Below are positions 55,545 through 62,910 of a DNA stretch of 64,000 nt, piece by piece (position 1 is the first letter of the stretch; the number at the start of each line of letters is the position of its first letter). A program made the translations under genes and the position numbers. Below the pieces are notes generated by a model. It saw only the letters and a program-made list of their open reading frames with translations, was not told where the DNA came from and did not search any database. The stretch is from assembly GCF_005503625.1 (NCBI RefSeq), contig NZ_SCMX01000006.1, positions 1 to 64,000 of the forward strand, in the 5' to 3' direction. This stretch comes from Cupriavidus sp. 2SB (GTDB taxonomy: Bacteria > Pseudomonadota > Gammaproteobacteria > Burkholderiales > Burkholderiaceae).

Positions 55545-56186
55545 TCAGGCTTTGCGAAGTTGCGCTGCCTCTTCCGCCAGCTTGCGGATGCGACCCCAGT
55601 CCTTGGCTGCGACCGCATCCTTCGGCACCACCCACGATCCACCAACGCACACCACGTTGGGCAGCGCCAGATAGGTGGATGCCTTGGCCAGGTCGATGCC
55701 GCCGGTCGGGCAGAACTTCAATTGCGAGAGCGGACCGTAGAGTGACTTCAGCATCGGCACGCCGCCAGCCGCTTCGGCCGGGAAGAACTTCAGGAACGAG
55801 AAGCCCGACTCCAGCGCGAACATGGCTTCGCTGGCCGTGGCCACACCCGGCAACAGCGAAATCCCGGCGCCCTGCGCGCCTTCCGCCAGTTTCTGCGTCA
55901 AGCCCGGCGACACGGCAAACTGCGCGCCCGCATCGCGCACGGCGTGCAGTTGCTCCAGCGTCAGTACCGTGCCGGCACCCACCACGGCCTGCGGCAAGGC
56001 CTTCGCCACCGCCTCCATGGCCTGCAGCGCCACGGGGGTACGCAGCGTGATTTCGAGCATGGGCAGGCCACCGGCGACCAGCGCCTCGCTGACGGCCAGG
56101 GCTTCCTCTACCGAGTGGTACTCCAGCACCGGGATCACGGGGACGTTGGTCAGGCGGGCGAGTAGCGGAGAGGGTTGGATTTGCAT
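55545..56186 (-). CDS. eda: 2-dehydro-3-deoxy-6-phosphogluconate (KDPG) aldolase
   Basis: A 213-residue class I aldolase that splits KDPG into pyruvate and glyceraldehyde-3-phosphate. The active-site residues sit at the same numbers as in E. coli Eda: Glu45 and Arg49 (Leu-Glu-Ile-Thr-Leu-Arg-Thr) and Schiff-base Lys133 (Phe-Leu-Lys-Phe-Phe-Pro-Ala-Glu). Start at 56186 gives the standard length. It is the last gene of a minus-strand operon with the KDG kinase and a PLP enzyme; no edd gene is present, so here it serves the KDG branch. Confidence 0.95.
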   Translation of the reverse strand: MQIQPSPLLARLTNVPVIPVLEYHSVEEALAVSEALVAGGLPMLEITLRTPVALQAMEAVAKALPQAVVGAGTVLTLEQLHAVRDAGAQFAVSPGLTQKLAEGAQGAGISLLPGVATASEAMFALESGFSFLKFFPAEAAGGVPMLKSLYGPLSQLKFCPTGGIDLAKASTYLALPNVVCVGGSWVVPKDAVAAKDWGRIRKLAEEAAQLRKA

Positions 56187-56244
56187 GACGTATGAATTCG
56201 ATTGAGCGATTGTTCGATGAGTGTCTGGACCCGGCGATGAAAGG

Positions 56245-57180
56245 TCAGGCAATCACGGAGATGTTTTGTTCCAGCCGGGCGAGCACGGTGTCTGCATGCG
56301 GGATCGGCGCCACGGCGCCATAGCCGGTGGTCGAGAGTGCTGCGGCCACATTGGCATAGCGAGCCGCCTCGAATGGATCGGCGCCGGCGGCCAGCCGCGC
56401 GATAAAGCTGCCGCCAAAGCAGTCACCCGCGCCCGTGGCATCGAGCGGCTTCACCGGATACGGCGCCACCAGTGCGCGTGATTCGGGCGTGGCCACATAG
56501 CTGCCCTCCTCGCCCAGTTTCAGCGCAATGATCTTCACGCCGCAGGCGAGCAGGTGATCGACGATGGCATCGCGGTCGTCGAGGCCGGTGAGCACGGTGA
56601 TGTCGTCCCAGCTTGGCAGGCAGACATCGGTCAGCGCAAACGCCTCGCGCATGATGCCGCGCGCGCGGGCCAGGGACCACAGGCGCAGCCGCAGGTTGGT
56701 ATCGAGCGAGACCTGCACGCCGGCCTTGCGCGCGTGTTCCATCGCGGCCAGCCCTGCGTCGCAGGCGCTCGTGCTGATGGCCAGGCTGATGCCGGAGAGG
56801 TGCAGGTAGCGAGCCTGCGCGATGGCCGCCAGCGGCAACTGGTCGTGGTGATAGCGGCTCGATGCCGAGCCCGCGCGCAGGTAATCGAAACGATGGCCGT
56901 GATTGTCGTGCGAGACGAAATAGACGCCGGTCGGCGCGGCCGTGTCGATGTGCACGTGGCGGGTATCCACACGCTCATGCGTCCAGAGTGCCAGCAGGCG
57001 CTCGCCGAAGCTGTCGCTGCCCACTGCGCCGACGAAGCCGGCGCTGGCGCCCTGCCGCGCGGCGGCAATCGCAAAATTGGAGGTATCGCCACCGAAGCCC
57101 TGCAGGTAGCGCGAGGGGTCGTCTGGCTGCTGGTTGAACTCCACCAGCGGTTCGCCGTAGGCAAGAATGTCGATGCTCAT
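56245..57180 (-). CDS. kdgK: 2-dehydro-3-deoxygluconokinase (PfkB family)
   Basis: A 311-residue PfkB-type sugar kinase. It opens with Tyr-Gly-Glu-Pro-Leu-Val-Glu-Phe and Gly-Gly-Asp-Thr-Ser-Asn-Phe-Ala (substrate side) and ends with the catalytic Asp-Ala-Thr-Gly-Ala-Gly-Asp-Cys-Phe-Gly-Gly. The N-terminal pattern suits KdgK, which phosphorylates 2-keto-3-deoxygluconate to KDPG, the substrate of the Eda encoded 58 bases downstream. The PLP-enzyme gene ends 19 bases upstream of its start. Confidence 0.9.
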   Translation of the reverse strand: MSIDILAYGEPLVEFNQQPDDPSRYLQGFGGDTSNFAIAAARQGASAGFVGAVGSDSFGERLLALWTHERVDTRHVHIDTAAPTGVYFVSHDNHGHRFDYLRAGSASSRYHHDQLPLAAIAQARYLHLSGISLAISTSACDAGLAAMEHARKAGVQVSLDTNLRLRLWSLARARGIMREAFALTDVCLPSWDDITVLTGLDDRDAIVDHLLACGVKIIALKLGEEGSYVATPESRALVAPYPVKPLDATGAGDCFGGSFIARLAAGADPFEAARYANVAAALSTTGYGAVAPIPHADTVLARLEQNISVIA

Positions 57181-57199
57181 GTCGCGTGCCGCTCCCTGA

Positions 57200-58468
57200 T
57201 CAGAAGAAGGTTTGCACGATGTCGATGACGCGCAACTGGCCATCCAGCACGGGGATATGGCGCCACTTGTCGAACGTCAGGCATGGATGCGAAATGTCGA
57301 AGGCAATCATATCGCCGACGCGGATATCGTCGCCAGCTTCGATTTCGAGATAGGCGTGCTGGTCCATCATCCCGGTCACCTTCCAGTGCGCCGCCGTCGC
57401 CATCGGCGCTTCCGTGCCCGGACGGTAGATCTGCGCGGGCACCGGCATGCCGGCATCGAACGCCGCATCGCGCTTGCCCAGGCCGATGATGGCGCGTGTT
57501 GGCTCGGGAATCGATTGCACGTACGTCCACAGTTGCAGCGCGGGCAGCAATCCCTCGCGCATCTTCTGCGCCACCGGATTACTGCTCAGGATACGCTCCT
57601 GCGCCGCGCGGTAGATGCCCACGTCATGCGTCAGGTAGCAGCCCGGACGCAGCACGATGTCGATCGGCGCGCCGATCTCGGTGCGCGCGAACTCCTCGGC
57701 CACCACGTCGTACCACGCAGAGCCTGCGCCCGACATCACAACCGGGCTACGCCCGAACCGGCCCGCCGCAGCCAGTTCGCGCGTGACCGCGACGGTGCGC
57801 TGCAGGAAGCGGCGGATATCGGCTTCCTGCGACAGCACGCCTTCATAAACTTCCACACCCGCCAGCACCAGCGTATCGGGCCAGCGCGATAGCGCTGCGA
57901 GGACTTCGGCCTGCTGCGCCGCGTCGCGCACGCCCGTGCGACCGCCTTCCACGCCCAGTTCGAGCAGCACCTGAAGTGTCTGGCCACGTGCGTGGAAGAA
58001 CGCGCCAAGCTGATCCGTCAGCGCGGCCGAATCGACCAGTGTGAAGAATTCGAAGTCCGGATCGCGCAGCAGATCGGCCACGATCTCCATATTGCGGCGC
58101 CCCACCAACTGATTCGCCATCAGCACGCGCTTTACACCGTGTGCGGCAGCGGCAGCAGTCTGTTGTGCAGTGGCCAGCGTGATACCCCAGGCACCCTCGG
58201 CGAGCTGGCGCGCGAACAACTTCGGCGCCATGGTTGTCTTGCCATGGGGCGCGAGCTGCACGCCATAGGCGCCCATGAAATTGCGCATCCACGAGAGGTT
58301 GTGCGTGAGCCGTTCTTCATAGAGCACGGCGGCGGGCAGGCTGAGTTCCTCGTCCAGCAGTTTCCAGCCCGGCTGGGCAGCTTCGGATGGGGTCAGCGGT
58401 GCGTCCAGACGGCCCAGCGCCTTGTTGAGCGGATCGATCATTCCGGTCTGGTACTTTATTTCACGCAT
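57200..58468 (-). CDS. PLP-dependent D-hydroxyamino-acid dehydratase-like enzyme (candidate D-glucosaminate dehydratase)
   Basis: A 422-residue fold-type III PLP enzyme of the D-serine dehydratase/D-threonine aldolase (DSD1-like) group. PLP lysine is Lys77 in Ala-Pro-His-Gly-Lys-Thr-Thr-Met-Ala-Pro, and the C-terminal metal site His394-x-Cys396 (Ser-His-Pro-Cys-Leu-Thr-Phe-Asp-Lys) is present. Such enzymes remove the beta-hydroxyl and amino group from D-configured 3-hydroxy amino acids. Because the next genes make a KDG kinase and KDPG aldolase, D-glucosaminate (giving KDG) is a better substrate guess than D-serine. ATG at 58468 has AGGGTG nine bases upstream; 58477 is an alternative. Confidence 0.8.
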   Translation of the reverse strand: MREIKYQTGMIDPLNKALGRLDAPLTPSEAAQPGWKLLDEELSLPAAVLYEERLTHNLSWMRNFMGAYGVQLAPHGKTTMAPKLFARQLAEGAWGITLATAQQTAAAAAHGVKRVLMANQLVGRRNMEIVADLLRDPDFEFFTLVDSAALTDQLGAFFHARGQTLQVLLELGVEGGRTGVRDAAQQAEVLAALSRWPDTLVLAGVEVYEGVLSQEADIRRFLQRTVAVTRELAAAGRFGRSPVVMSGAGSAWYDVVAEEFARTEIGAPIDIVLRPGCYLTHDVGIYRAAQERILSSNPVAQKMREGLLPALQLWTYVQSIPEPTRAIIGLGKRDAAFDAGMPVPAQIYRPGTEAPMATAAHWKVTGMMDQHAYLEIEAGDDIRVGDMIAFDISHPCLTFDKWRHIPVLDGQLRVIDIVQTFF

Positions 58469-58513
58469 CGCTGACATCACCCTGTCAAAATTCAATTGAC
58501 GTAATGATAGCCT

Positions 58514-58550
58514 TGAAATTACGATATTTCACCCTTGTTATAAAGTAACA
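58514..58550. promoter_or_regulatory. Two inverted repeats in the divergent promoter, candidate RpiR operator
   Basis: TGAAAT-TACGAT-ATTTCA (58514-58531) is a perfect 6-bp inverted repeat of the TGAAA/TTTCA kind used by RpiR-family regulators. A second one, TGTTA-TAAAG-TAACA, follows at 58536-58550. Both lie in the 123-base region between the PLP-enzyme operon and the RpiR gene. Confidence 0.6.
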
Positions 58551-58591
58551 TGCGTTGCCGGCAATGACCGGTGCCGCCCGCCACCCCGACC

Positions 58592-59497
58592 ATGACCGCA
58601 CCCTTCGACATCCTGACCCGCATTGCCGAGCGTGGCCCGTCGCTGCGTCTGGCCGAGCAAAAGGTGGCGCAGGTGATCCTGGAGGATCTGGCCGGCGCGG
58701 CTGCAGCCAGCATCAACGAACTGGCACGCAAGGCGGCGGTGAGTGAGGCCAGCGTCACGCGCTTTGCCAAGGCCATTGGTTGCCGCGATGTGCGCGACCT
58801 CAAGCTGCGGCTGGCACAAGCCACTGCGGTGGGCACGCGTTTCCTGCAGCCCGCCCCCGCGCTGACCGAGGCAGACACGCCCGCCACGCTGACCGATCGC
58901 ATCCATACCGATGTGCTGACCACGCTGGAGGTCAATCGCAAGCTGATCGACCCCGCACGAATCGATCAGGCCGCGCGCCTGTTGCTCGGCGCACGCATGG
59001 TCTACGCTTTCGGGATGGGTGGCGGCTCCACGTTCATGGCCGACGAGGCGCGCTTCCGGCTGGCACGACTGGGGCAGCCCGTGGCCACATATCAGGACGC
59101 CCTGCTGCAAAAGATGGTGGCGGCCACGCTGACGCGCGACGACGTGGTGCTGGCGTTCTCGGCCAGCGGCAACGTGCCCGAGATGCTGGCCAGTTGCGAT
59201 ACGGCGCGCGAGTACGGTGCGAAGCTGATCGCCGTGACCGCGCTAGGTTCGCCACTGGCGGCGCGCGCCGACGTGCTGCTGCCGGTGCGCACGCTGGAAA
59301 CCGATTTCATTTTCAAGCCGTCGGCGTCCCGCTACGCGATGCTGCTGGTGATGGACGTGCTGGCCACCCAGTGCGCGCTGCTCCAGCAGGAGCAAAGCAA
59401 GGAAAAGCTGCGACGGCTCAAGTACGTGCTCGACGTCCATCGCGGCGTCAGCCAGGACAGCGACGGCCCAGATAGCCGCCAGCCGCTGGGAGACTGA
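58592..59497 (+). CDS. RpiR-family transcriptional regulator (HTH plus SIS domain)
   Basis: A 301-residue regulator with an RpiR helix-turn-helix (Ile-Asn-Glu-Leu-Ala-Arg-Lys-Ala-Ala-Val-Ser-Glu-Ala-Ser-Val-Thr-Arg-Phe-Ala-Lys) and a SIS sugar-phosphate-binding domain (Phe-Gly-Met-Gly-Gly-Gly-Ser ... Phe-Ser-Ala-Ser-Gly-Asn). SIS domains sense phosphosugars, here most likely KDPG. GTG at 58571 is an alternative start. The amidohydrolase gene begins two bases after its stop. It should control both arms of the divergent cluster. Confidence 0.9.
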   Translation: MTAPFDILTRIAERGPSLRLAEQKVAQVILEDLAGAAAASINELARKAAVSEASVTRFAKAIGCRDVRDLKLRLAQATAVGTRFLQPAPALTEADTPATLTDRIHTDVLTTLEVNRKLIDPARIDQAARLLLGARMVYAFGMGGGSTFMADEARFRLARLGQPVATYQDALLQKMVAATLTRDDVVLAFSASGNVPEMLASCDTAREYGAKLIAVTALGSPLAARADVLLPVRTLETDFIFKPSASRYAMLLVMDVLATQCALLQQEQSKEKLRRLKYVLDVHRGVSQDSDGPDSRQPLGD

Positions 59498-59499
59498 CC

Positions 59500-60960
59500 A
59501 TGCCACACCTGTTCGATACCCTGATTCGCGCCGTGATGCTGCTCGACGGCTCCGGCGCTGCCGGCCGCATGGCGGATGTGGCGCTGCGCGATGGTCGCAT
59601 TGCCCGCATCGACGAGGCCGGCACGATCGATCCGGATACCGCGTCGCACGTTGTGGAAGGCCACGGGCTGGTGCTCTCGCCCGGTTTCATCGACGTCCAC
59701 ACGCACGACGACACCAACGTGGTACGCGAACCGGCCATGACGCCGAAGATCTCGCAAGGCGTGACCACGGTGATCGTCGGCAACTGCGGCATCAGCGCCG
59801 CGCCGGTGACATTGCCCGGCGATCCGCCCGACCCGATGAACCTGCTCGGCCGTGCCGAGGCGTTCCGCTACCCGGATTTCCGCACCTATGTCGATGCCGT
59901 GAACGCCGCGCAGCCTTCGGTTAACGTGGCGGCGCTGGTAGGACATACCGCGCTGCGCAGCAACCACATGGACCGCTTCGACCGCGCGGCCACGGCGGAA
60001 GAGATCACCGCCATGCGCGGCCAGCTCGAAGAAGCCCTGGCGCATGGCGCATTGGGCCTGTCCACGGGGCTCGCCTATGCCAACGCCTTCCACGCGCCTA
60101 CCGACGAGGTGCTGGCGCTGGCCGAGCCGCTCGCCGATGCCGGCGCGCTCTATGCCACGCACTTGCGCAGCGAATTCGCCGAAATCCTCGACGCGATGGA
60201 CGAGGCGTACCGCATCGGCCGTCACGCGCGCGTGCCGGTAGTGATCTCGCACCTGAAATGCGCGGGCGTGCCGAACTGGGGCCGCAGCGGCCAGGTGCTG
60301 CAATCGCTGGAAACGGCGCAGCGCTGGCAGCCGGTGGGCTGCGACTGCTATCCGTACACGGCCAGTTCCTCGACGCTCGATCTCAAGCAGGTCACCAGCG
60401 ACTTCGACATCCAGGTCACGTGGTCCGAGTCCCATCCCGATCAGGGCGGACGGCTGCTGGCCGATATCGCCACTGACTGGAACGTGGACCTGCACGAGGC
60501 CGCGCGCCGCCTGCAGCCGGCCGGCGCGGTCTATCACTGCATGGAAGATGCCGACGTGGACCGCATCCTGAGCCACCCGGCCACCGTGGTGGGTTCCGAT
60601 GGACTCCCCAACGATCCGCTGCCCCATCCGCGCCTGTGGGGTGCGTTCCCGCGCGTGCTGGGGCATTACGCACGTGACCGCGAGCTGTTTCCGCTGGCCG
60701 TGGCGATCAACAAGATGACCGGCCTCTCCGCCGAGCGCTTCGGGCTCACCGAACGCGGCTTCGTGCGCGAAGGCTACTGGGCGGACCTTGTGCTGTTCGA
60801 CGCGGCCACCATCCGGGACGCCGCCAGCTTTACCGACCCGATGCAGCCGGCCGAAGGCATCGCCGCCGTCTGGGTCAATGGCGAGCTGTCGTGGCAGCAC
60901 CGCGAAGCCACTGGCATACGCGCCGGGCGCTTCCTGCCGCGCGGCGCACGCCCATCCTGA
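59500..60960 (+). CDS. D-aminoacylase-like amidohydrolase (candidate N-acyl-D-glucosaminate deacylase)
   Basis: A 486-residue metal-dependent hydrolase of the N-acyl-D-amino-acid deacylase group. Metal ligands are His67-x-His69 (Asp-Val-His-Thr-His-Asp-Asp), Cys96 (Gly-Asn-Cys-Gly), the His of Ser-His-Leu-Lys, and the late Gly-Ser-Asp-Gly-Leu-Pro-Asn-Asp. It removes acyl groups from N-acyl-D-amino acids. D-glucosaminate has the same configuration at its alpha carbon as a D-amino acid, so N-acetyl-D-glucosaminate would fit the site (inference). Translationally close-coupled to the RpiR gene; RidA follows after 30 bases. Confidence 0.88.
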   Translation: MPHLFDTLIRAVMLLDGSGAAGRMADVALRDGRIARIDEAGTIDPDTASHVVEGHGLVLSPGFIDVHTHDDTNVVREPAMTPKISQGVTTVIVGNCGISAAPVTLPGDPPDPMNLLGRAEAFRYPDFRTYVDAVNAAQPSVNVAALVGHTALRSNHMDRFDRAATAEEITAMRGQLEEALAHGALGLSTGLAYANAFHAPTDEVLALAEPLADAGALYATHLRSEFAEILDAMDEAYRIGRHARVPVVISHLKCAGVPNWGRSGQVLQSLETAQRWQPVGCDCYPYTASSSTLDLKQVTSDFDIQVTWSESHPDQGGRLLADIATDWNVDLHEAARRLQPAGAVYHCMEDADVDRILSHPATVVGSDGLPNDPLPHPRLWGAFPRVLGHYARDRELFPLAVAINKMTGLSAERFGLTERGFVREGYWADLVLFDAATIRDAASFTDPMQPAEGIAAVWVNGELSWQHREATGIRAGRFLPRGARPS

Positions 60961-60990
60961 TTTCAGAACATACAGAGCAAAGGAGTTTCC

Positions 60991-61377
60991 ATGGACATCA
61001 AGCGATTCGGCGTAGAAGGCGGCACGGGCCAGGGCGGCTCGCACATGCCGTTTGCACGCGCGGTGCAGGCGGACGGCTGGCTGTACGTCAGCGGCCAGGT
61101 TCCGATGGTCGATGGCGAAGTGGTGGAAGGCAACATCGTCACGCAGACGCATCAGGCCATCAAGAACGTGTTGGCCATCCTCGCCGAAGCCGGCTACGGC
61201 CCCGAGCACGTGGTGCGCTGTGGCGTGTGGCTGGACGATGCGCGCGACTTCCCCTCGTTCAACAAGATCTTCAAGGAATACTTCGGCGCCAATCCGCCGG
61301 CCCGCGCCTGCGTGCAGTCGAGCATGGTGGTGGACTGCAAGGTAGAAGTGGATTGCATCGCGTATCGCAAGCCCTGA
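60991..61377 (+). CDS. ridA: RidA-family enamine/imine deaminase
   Basis: A 128-residue RidA protein that hydrolyses reactive enamine or imine intermediates released by PLP dehydratases. The catalytic Arg105 (Asn-Pro-Pro-Ala-Arg-Ala-Cys-Val) and a Glu at 119 are present. AAAGGAG lies upstream of the ATG. Its place between the deacylase and the permease, and opposite a PLP dehydratase, suits the dehydratase route: loss of the hydroxyl gives an enamine that RidA would deaminate. Confidence 0.93.
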   Translation: MDIKRFGVEGGTGQGGSHMPFARAVQADGWLYVSGQVPMVDGEVVEGNIVTQTHQAIKNVLAILAEAGYGPEHVVRCGVWLDDARDFPSFNKIFKEYFGANPPARACVQSSMVVDCKVEVDCIAYRKP

Positions 61378-61551
61378 TTCAGTCCCGACCTGATTTTTTG
61401 ATTTGAGCGCCTGCCCTCCGCAGGTGCTGCCGGCGAGCCAGCCGGCGCACACAACGATTTCATCAACCCGCCGCGTTCGCAAGAAATCGCGGCTTTTTCA
61501 TAGCGAGAGCGGACCGTCCTCAGGCCGGCACCCGCGACAAGGAGACGAGAC

Positions 61552-62910
61552 ATGGGTGCCGTTACGGGAACCACGCTCTTGGTGTACGCGCTGATCGCGG
61601 TGATCGCGCTGGTGATCCTCATTGCCAAATTCAAACTGAACCCGTTCATCACACTCGTGGTGGTGTCGGTAGCCCTTGGCTTTGCCGTGGGCATGCCGAT
61701 GGGCGATATCGTGAAGTCCTTCGAGGCCGGGGTCGGTGGCACGCTGGGACACATCGCGCTGGTGATCGGCCTGGGCACGATGCTGGGCAAGATGATGGCC
61801 GAGTCCGGCGGCGCCGAGCGCATCGCGCTGACGCTGATCGACTTCTTCGGCGAGAAAAACGTGCACTGGGCCATGGTGGTCATCGCGTTCATCGTGGGCC
61901 TGCCGGTGTTCTTCGAAGTGGGCTTCGTGCTGCTGATTCCCATCGCGTTCAACGTGGCCAAGCGCACGAACACGTCGATGATCCTGGTCGGCATCCCGAT
62001 GGTCTGCGGCCTGTCCGTGGTCCACGGCCTGATCCCGCCGCACCCGGCCGCGCTGCTGGCTGTGCAGGCGTATGGCGCCGACATCGGCAAGACCATCATG
62101 TTCGCGCTGATCGTCGGTATTCCCACCGCGATCATCGCCGGACCGCTGTTCGCCAAGCTGATCGACAAGCATATCCAGCTGCCCGCCGTGAACCCGCTGG
62201 CCGAGCAACTGACCGAGGAAGGAGAGAACGCGCGCGCGGGCAACCTGCCGGGCTTCGGCATCACGGTGCTGACCATCCTGCTGCCGGTGTTCCTGATGCT
62301 GATCGGTAGCTGGGCAGACCTGATTGCCACGCCGAAGACCTTTGCCAACGACTTCCTGAAGCTCATCGGCAACTCGGTGATGGCCCTGCTGATCGCTACG
62401 CTGTTCAGCTTCTACACGTTCGGCAAGATGCGCGGCTTTACCCGTGAGTCGATCCTGAAGTTCACCAACGAGTGCGTGGCCCCCACGGCCATCATCACGC
62501 TGGTGGTAGGCGCAGGCGGCGGCTTCGGCCGCGTGCTGCGCGACTCGGGGATCTCCACGGCCATCGTCGACGTGGCCAACAACGCCCACGTCTCGGTACT
62601 CGTGCTGGGCTGGCTGGTGGCGGTGATGATCCGCATCGCCACGGGTTCGGCCACGGTCGCCATGACCACTGCAGCCGGCATCGTTGCCCCCATCGCCGCC
62701 AGCGTGCCGGGCACCCGCCCCGAACTGCTGGTGCTGACCACGGGCGCCGGCTCGCTGATCCTCTCGCACGTCAACGACGGCGGCTTCTGGCTGGTGAAGG
62801 AATACTTCAACATGACCGTGGCGCAAACGTTCAAGACGTGGTCCGTGGCGGAAACGATTATCTCGGTGGTGGCGCTGTTGTTTACGCTGGCGTTGTCGAC
62901 GGTGGTTTGA
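61552..62910 (+). CDS. GntP-family permease
   Basis: A 452-residue inner-membrane transporter with 12-14 hydrophobic segments of the GntP/DsdX family, whose members import gluconate and related hexonates or D-serine. Typical segments are Gly-Leu-Pro-Val-Phe-Phe-Glu-Val-Gly-Phe-Val-Leu, Leu-Ile-Pro-Pro-His-Pro-Ala and Ala-Thr-Gly-Ser-Ala-Thr-Val-Ala-Met-Thr-Thr-Ala-Ala-Gly-Ile. In this cluster a 2-(acyl)amino-hexonate is a plausible cargo, since it combines both known substrate classes. AGGAGACGAG precedes the ATG. Confidence 0.92.
   Translation: MGAVTGTTLLVYALIAVIALVILIAKFKLNPFITLVVVSVALGFAVGMPMGDIVKSFEAGVGGTLGHIALVIGLGTMLGKMMAESGGAERIALTLIDFFGEKNVHWAMVVIAFIVGLPVFFEVGFVLLIPIAFNVAKRTNTSMILVGIPMVCGLSVVHGLIPPHPAALLAVQAYGADIGKTIMFALIVGIPTAIIAGPLFAKLIDKHIQLPAVNPLAEQLTEEGENARAGNLPGFGITVLTILLPVFLMLIGSWADLIATPKTFANDFLKLIGNSVMALLIATLFSFYTFGKMRGFTRESILKFTNECVAPTAIITLVVGAGGGFGRVLRDSGISTAIVDVANNAHVSVLVLGWLVAVMIRIATGSATVAMTTAAGIVAPIAASVPGTRPELLVLTTGAGSLILSHVNDGGFWLVKEYFNMTVAQTFKTWSVAETIISVVALLFTLALSTVV

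Follow-up and report, generated by a model that had tools for sequence, protein, structure and literature searches.

A divergent seven-gene locus in Cupriavidus sp. 2SB

We analyzed a stretch of 64,000 nucleotides from Cupriavidus sp. 2SB (contig NZ_SCMX01000006.1, positions 1 to 64,000), referred to as the window, in which seven open reading frames (ORFs) between positions 55545 and 62910 form two divergent units around a short palindrome (Table 1). One strand encodes a 2-keto-3-deoxy-6-phosphogluconate (KDPG) aldolase, a probable 2-keto-3-deoxygluconate (KDG) kinase and a pyridoxal phosphate (PLP) enzyme, the other an RpiR-type regulator, an amidohydrolase, a RidA protein and a GntP permease. 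We consider it very likely that this locus is the betaproteobacterial version of the ong pathway for the use of N-acetyl-D-glucosaminate (GlcNAc1A), which was published in 2022 for the marine bacterium Pseudoalteromonas prydzensis (PMC9537276). The seven genes very probably let Cupriavidus feed on this sugar acid, a product of oxidative chitin cutting.

A preliminary description of the window had named the same seven genes at these places and strands, which is borne out by the ORFs and their Pfam families: for each of the seven proteins the top Pfam match exceeds its curated cut-off. The subfamily cut-offs of NCBIfam are passed by Eda and GntP. RidA stays slightly under that of TIGR00004 (95.5 vs 106.25 bits), KdgK lies under all equivalog cut-offs shown (top model KDG/KDGal kinase, 184 vs 400 bits), and neither the hydrolase nor the PLP enzyme reaches the cut-off of any model shown. 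The best NCBIfam model of the RpiR protein is HexR, with 181.2 bits under a cut-off of 296. The promoter region of 123 bp given earlier assumes ATG starts, at 58468 and 58592; with TTG/GTG starts the gap between ongC and ongR is 75 bp. Order and orientation of all seven genes are kept in 11 of 11 named Cupriavidus loci (L040-L050), so the arrangement is not due to chance.

Table 1. Features of the locus with their predicted functions. PpOngB is the solved GlcNAc1A deacetylase.
Feature	Position	Strand	Predicted function	Basis
eda	55545-56252	-	KDPG aldolase, KDPG to pyruvate + glyceraldehyde 3-phosphate	PF01081 Aldolase 239.9 bits; NF004325 269.5 vs cut-off 241
kdgK	56245-57183	-	PfkB kinase, probable KDG kinase at family level	PF00294 186.5 bits
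ongC-type	57200-58468 (ATG) or 57200-58495 (TTG)	-	PLP ammonia-lyase, D-glucosaminate to KDG + NH3	PF14031 D-ser_dehydrat 70.6 bits
palindrome TGTTATAAAGTAACA	58536-58550		probable OngR operator	between divergent units; matches TGTTANNNNNTAMCA
ongR-type	58571-59497 (alternative ATG start 58592)	+	RpiR regulator	HTH_6 59 bits; SIS 58.8 bits
ongB-type	59500-60960	+	deacetylase, GlcNAc1A to D-glucosaminate + acetate	Amidohydro_3 127.5 bits; PpOngB substrate residues
ongD-type	60991-61377	+	RidA, probable enamine/imine hydrolase	PF01042 Ribonuc_L-PSP 96.9 bits
gntP	61552-62910	+	GntP-family permease, probable sugar-acid importer, gluconate possible	GntP_permease 544.2 bits; TIGR00791 499 vs cut-off 292.75

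Substrate residues of the hydrolase

The structural study of OngB from 2025 names Ser292 and Gln298 as the chief residues dividing GlcNAc1A deacetylases from D-aminoacylases; the exchanges S292T and Q298A lower kcat/Km of PpOngB to 1.3% and 6.9% (PMC12017989). We aligned 141 sequences, comprising the window hydrolase, PpOngB (PDB 9KB1/9KB3), the D-aminoacylase AfDam (1M7J), 9g5m and homologues from the fetched loci, and compared 20 active-site positions. At 19 of these the window hydrolase is identical to PpOngB, including A193, E226, A256, S290, S292 and Q298; position 348 is the sole mismatch (C in the window hydrolase, G in PpOngB). It also retains the metal site Cys97, His222 and His252, the catalytic Asp368, and His68 and His70. 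Fold, metal site and the acetyl and carboxylate pocket are shared with AfDam and BbDam (3GIP) as well (PMC12017989), but these two carry Thr at 292 and no Gln at 298, and the D-aminoacylase signature (Thr at 292, Leu or Arg at 298) is absent from the window hydrolase with its S and Q.

Across the alignment Ser292 and Gln298 occur together in 119 sequences and Thr292 with Gln298 in 7. Gln298 is missing from 15, which are the sequences of D-aminoacylase type (AfDam and 14 homologues). AfDam aligns an R in the Gln298 column where PMC12017989 gives Leu, and therefore the two alignments differ in this loop. The bit scores of the window hydrolase are 644 for 9g5m, 541 for PpOngB (9kb1), 472 for AfDam (1m7j) and 393 for BbDam, and in a FastTree phylogeny it stands together with PpOngB in a clade of 120 tips (support 0.982). 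Residues and grouping support the assignment as a putative OngB with the substrate-specifying residues of the solved deacetylase. Its nearest named relative, among the best 80 of 582 matches, is from Cupriavidus agavae (97%).

The substrate of the seven homologues with Thr292 and Gln298 (L104, L105, L106, L112, L133, L138, L139) may be another N-acyl compound. Those of L104-L106 and L139 adjoin OngC; OngR and RidA were not found at these four loci. L138 (genome G078, Burkholderiaceae) has two OngB copies and an SSS-family permease 61% identical to that of L162. The source genome encodes a second amidohydrolase (G000:C89:14676-16097, L155) of 45-46% identity which, with Ser292 and Arg298, is probably a paralogue of D-aminoacylase type.

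The PLP enzyme

Among solved structures the PLP enzyme is closest to 3gwq (610 bits over 422 residues), whose deposited name, D-serine deaminase, implies another substrate. The remaining eight solved matches score 24-79 bits and are named D-threonine aldolase, D-threo-3-hydroxyaspartate dehydratase, D-3-hydroxyaspartate aldolase or D-serine dehydratase. OngC of P. prydzensis converts D-glucosaminate to KDG and ammonia (PMC9537276), and since it also accepts D-serine, the name given to 3gwq neither contradicts nor proves a role in glucosaminate use. The comparison with P. prydzensis supports the window enzyme as a putative member of the OngC kind, the kind known to make KDG and ammonia from glucosaminate.

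As regards 3gwq, this closest relative still carries the D-serine deaminase name and may itself be a candidate glucosaminate ammonia-lyase. Searching the open-access literature for 9G5M, 9GV8 and 3GWQ, we found only a D-threonine aldolase paper naming 3GWQ.

Conservation of the gene set

We sampled 200 genomes of the family to which the window belongs and found OngB relatives in 142 at E <= 1e-60, a threshold that admits some paralogues. We then recorded the genes near OngB in 80 named loci. Neighbor genes were taken from an ORF caller or tblastn searches, so that a gene scored as absent may have been overlooked; some loci lie on short contigs, and the genomes of the 80 named loci and of the other loci may overlap. 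OngC was found in 73 loci, OngR in 74, RidA in 73, GntP in 28, the KdgK type of the window in 22 and Eda in 15, the last count including one doubtful match of 33% (L071). Because OngC, OngR and RidA each occur in 73-74 of the 80 loci, the core is broad: OngC, OngR, OngB and RidA recur together in most of these loci, and this neighborhood comparison, proposed in the preliminary description, favors the route set out there. Linked kdgK and eda are lineage-specific. Their co-conservation, to which the preliminary description had tied its route, holds within Cupriavidus and for two Ralstonia loci and not across the named loci at large, which in part counts against that route. The use of this oxidized chitin sugar is probably common in Burkholderiales, given the OngB relatives in 142 of the 200 family genomes and the four-gene core in most named loci.

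All 11 named Cupriavidus loci have both kdgK and eda linked, as do Ralstonia L062 and L066, whereas the loci of Herbaspirillum, Collimonas and Glaciimonas have kdgK without eda. With the exception of L071, neither gene was seen in the loci of Burkholderia, Paraburkholderia, Caballeronia, Pandoraea, Achromobacter and Bordetella. L109 has a different KdgK type linked. Searching 40 chosen genomes for KdgK relatives, linked or unlinked, we obtained 14 with a match at E <= 1e-40, one of them with an internal stop. The top solved relatives of KdgK are named fructokinase (138 bits) and KDG kinase (125 bits).

OngC, OngR and RidA were not found in L153, L154, L155, L168 and L175, the only ones of the 14 homologue loci without Gln298 that span 18-20 kb; the paralogue loci L140-L148 (n = 9) measure 2.5 kb, too short for neighbors. 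In Pseudomonas L114 and L116-L118 and in L157-L159, which have the same layout, OngB is present, mostly with GntP and OngR, and OngC and RidA were not found nearby. The deamination step in loci of this type may lie elsewhere or use another enzyme.

A palindrome between the divergent units

The palindrome is the sole match to TGTTANNNNNTAMCA in the window, also when one mismatch is allowed, and shuffled sequences contain on average 0.00 exact matches. Among 82 gaps between ongC and ongR, the window included, a perfect TGTTA-N5-TAACA was found in 41, one mismatch in 38, two in 2 and three in 1, so that 79 of 82 carry the palindrome with no more than one mismatch. These gaps were themselves the source of the motif, and the sequences are related and not independent. 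L167, with a gap of 4300 bases because the chosen matches lie far apart, was scored as a miss among the 82. We further counted exact matches to TGTTANNNNNTAMCA in 126 loci (2,449,584 bases; loci of at least 5 kb), taking as an ong gene start the region within 400 bases upstream of or 30 bases into the gene. There were 80 matches at ong-type gene starts and 0 elsewhere, and 79 of the 126 loci carry an exact site.

The palindrome also occurs upstream of ongC in loci with genes for an SSS permease and a glycoside hydrolase of family GH20, with exact copies in L163 and L171. Altogether it is present at or beside ongC with at most one mismatch in 10 of 14 SSS-type loci (L149-L175): exact in L163, L169 and L171, with one mismatch in L151, L161, L162, L164, L166, L172 and L174, and not found in L152, L167, L170 and L173. 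Pseudomonas-type and Achromobacter/Bordetella loci, among others, are without it. In the window, two simple promoter matches, one per strand, adjoin the palindrome at 58496-58532 and lend it weak support.

OngR represses ongOT-1 and the ongCRBD operon in P. prydzensis (PMC9537276), and the KDPG-sensing Pseudomonas regulator RccR binds a 15-bp site, TGTAGT/ACTACA (PMC5489143), resembling the window palindrome in form. From its position and conservation the palindrome is likely the OngR operator. It would offer a direct handle on the regulon. As to the inducer of OngR, KDPG or KDG is our guess.

The probable importer

GntP is the only TIGR00791 match in the source genome (6,983,185 bases searched, E <= 1e-20). 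Besides the 28 named loci, it is linked in 6 of 20 further loci of the family. The 27 loci L149-L175 include 14 with an SSS permease (an assignment confirmed by Pfam for two, L162 and L167) and 7 with GntP. Of 40 chosen genomes, 28 contain GntP (E <= 1e-120), and all 12 without it have an SSS permease beside OngB. In Achromobacter and Bordetella (L073, L076, L092, L098, L108, L115, L119) a Dpp/Opp-type ABC transporter gene lies between ongC and ongR, called by Pfam for L073 and by similarity for the other six.

Of 398 genomes of the phylum, 13 encode a GntP with 62% identity or more, and all 13 are among the 31 that have OngB at E <= 1e-150. We rejected this co-occurrence as proof of a dedicated importer on three grounds: of 15 regions with an unlinked gntP in relatives, 12 have an eda next to it, the unlinked region L186 reads as a gluconate operon (C-terminal part of an ILV_EDD_C dehydratase, eda, gntP and a gntK-like kinase gene, in this order), and linked and unlinked copies are not separated in the GntP tree. 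For the same reasons we grade GntP as a probable importer of GlcNAc1A that may also, or even mainly, carry gluconate.

This leads to the possibility, which we regard as rather unlikely, that the locus is in part a gluconate/Entner-Doudoroff module in which GntP imports gluconate and Eda is a general aldolase, joined to a glucosaminate branch. The sole GntP match of the genome being at this locus fits such a module, as do the eda genes beside unlinked gntP and the close GntP homologue of L186 in an operon with 6-phosphogluconate dehydratase, eda and a gntK-like kinase. The presumed homologues H16_B1211-B1213 of C. necator are induced in the growth phase on fructose (PMC3734047), and the Entner-Doudoroff list of PMC9636797 names H16_B1213 as the KDPG aldolase. 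However, gluconokinase and edd are not among the seven genes, gluconate use is not known to involve OngB, OngC or RidA, and in ten loci of Pseudomonas, Andreprevotia and others the GntP linked to OngB belongs to a separate clade (support 1.0). The module is compatible with GlcNAc1A use, as GntP and Eda may serve both acids and Eda may also serve the general Entner-Doudoroff route.

We tentatively propose, with somewhat less than even confidence in the joint claim, one old OngR switch with TGTTA-N5-TAACA, an interchangeable importer and a Cupriavidus locus serving both acids. If true, this operator would govern GlcNAc1A use in many beta- and gammaproteobacterial clusters, with SSS permeases in marine-like clusters, GntP in Cupriavidus, Herbaspirillum, Ralstonia and Pseudomonas, and a Dpp-type ABC transporter in Achromobacter and Bordetella. 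The Cupriavidus cluster would have recruited the gluconate permease and the aldolase of the Entner-Doudoroff route.

Comparison with the ong cluster and proposed pathway

The ong cluster of P. prydzensis ACAM 620 (PMC9537276) shares OngB, OngC, RidA (OngD), KdgK, the RpiR-type OngR and the inferred chemistry with the window, in which this catabolic core is complete, KdgK at family level. The two clusters differ in that P. prydzensis has the SSS importer OngIT and the GH20 enzyme OngA, whereas the window has GntP, no GH20 OngA and a linked eda. No SSS permease is among the seven genes; the rest of the source genome was not searched for one. The window KdgK belongs to a PfkB subgroup different from the marine type, as judged by three SSS/GH20-type loci and not by P. 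prydzensis DNA. An aldolase gene, kdgA, is reported in ong clusters of Vibrio, Klebsiella and Serratia (PMC9537276). The preliminary description had proposed a comparison with described oxidative chitin routes, and here the gene kinds match most of the ong cluster.

Within the genus, two earlier papers had suggested that such genes break down glucosaminate, one in 2010 (JMP134; PMC2842291) and one in 2013 (C. necator H16_B1211-B1213; PMC3734047). Homology to the window genes is presumed from genus and gene order, and the passages of the two papers on glucosaminate do not mention a deacetylase step. The 2022 survey lists the complete pathway in Gammaproteobacteria and names one betaproteobacterium (PMC9537276). 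The earlier claim that annotation misses the route is not supported, as the full route is in PMC9537276, and we rejected the idea of an undescribed pathway, which PMC9537276, PMC12017989, PMC2842291 and PMC3734047 precede. GntP in place of OngIT and the TGTTA-N5-TAACA operator were not found in print in the open-access literature; as far as this literature shows, both the operator and a Burkholderiales cluster of the GntP type are new.

The proposed route from GlcNAc1A over D-glucosaminate and KDG to KDPG is very probably right, judging by the residues and clade of OngB and the kind of OngC. GntP would import GlcNAc1A and OngB would take off the acetate, leaving D-glucosaminate. OngC would eliminate the 3-hydroxyl and free ammonia to give KDG, with RidA presumably clearing the enamine or imine. 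KdgK would phosphorylate KDG to KDPG, which Eda would then split, and OngR would repress both divergent units from the one palindrome. For the window proteins themselves, each activity and the transport step are our inference. Others have demonstrated the reactions of OngB, OngC and KdgK and repression by OngR with the marine homologues, and ongB, ongC, ongD and kdgK are each required for growth of P. prydzensis on GlcNAc1A (PMC9537276).

Points against an ong pathway, and possible scavenging of D-amino acids

Several observations weigh against this assignment. Most of the 80 named loci have no linked kdgK or eda, and KdgK shares only 27-30% identity with the kinases of three SSS/GH20-type loci. 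OngC was not found near OngB in 7 of the 80, four of them Pseudomonas and part of them short contigs. The deep nodes of the OngB tree are weak: the node with every Gln298 sequence has a support of 0.437 and includes two Thr292/Arg298 sequences. The window GntP is close to gluconate-operon permeases of relatives. Regarding the operator, 47 of the 126 loci are without an exact site, and no palindrome with at most one mismatch was found in 30 regions around unlinked gntP (15), gntP paralogues (5) and unlinked kdgK (10). Finally, D-serine and D-threonine are also substrates of OngC of P. prydzensis (PMC9537276).

These two further substrates of OngC, together with the many cores without kdgK or eda, would suit a scavenging system for N-acyl-D-amino acids, in which D-serine or D-threonine released by the hydrolase would be deaminated by the PLP enzyme and kdgK and eda would belong to another pathway. 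The GntP family moreover includes the D-serine transporter DsdX, whose model the window permease matches with 348 bits, under the cut-off of 618. We consider this improbable in view of S292 and Q298 in the hydrolase and of the linkage of kdgK and eda in 11 of 11 Cupriavidus loci. In addition, PpOngB and two homologues of 57 and 76% identity deacetylate GlcNAc1A alone and none of the tested N-acetyl-D-amino acids (PMC12017989).

Source of the substrate

For GlcNAc1A use by the ong pathway, a plausible source is chitin cut by the organism's own lytic polysaccharide monooxygenase (LPMO) and chitinase. The source genome has one AA10 LPMO match (PF03067, 189 bits); the 418-aa ORF in which it lies also encodes GbpA_2 and CBM_5_12 domains. 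A single GH18 match was found in an ORF of 957 aa that contains PKD domains. A further point against the pathway is that GH20 was not found in the source genome and that neither the GH20 OngA nor the SSS OngIT is among the seven genes. That the true substrate is another N-acyl-2-amino-2-deoxy-hexonate and not a chitin product, as the missing GH20 hexosaminidase and the different residue 348 might suggest, is very improbable given the LPMO with chitin-binding modules, the GH18 protein and the conserved hydroxyl-contacting residues S290, S292, Q298 and E226.

We also weighed a glucose/sorbosone-dehydrogenase-like gene (L005:12369-13715) as a possible origin of the acid; it belongs to gene cluster c60, which does not rank with the 45 largest clusters of the loci. 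This gene lies downstream of gntP, where the window from 63025 onward (L005:11025-13715) encodes a Peripla_BP_6-type periplasmic binding protein and the glucose/sorbosone dehydrogenase-like protein.

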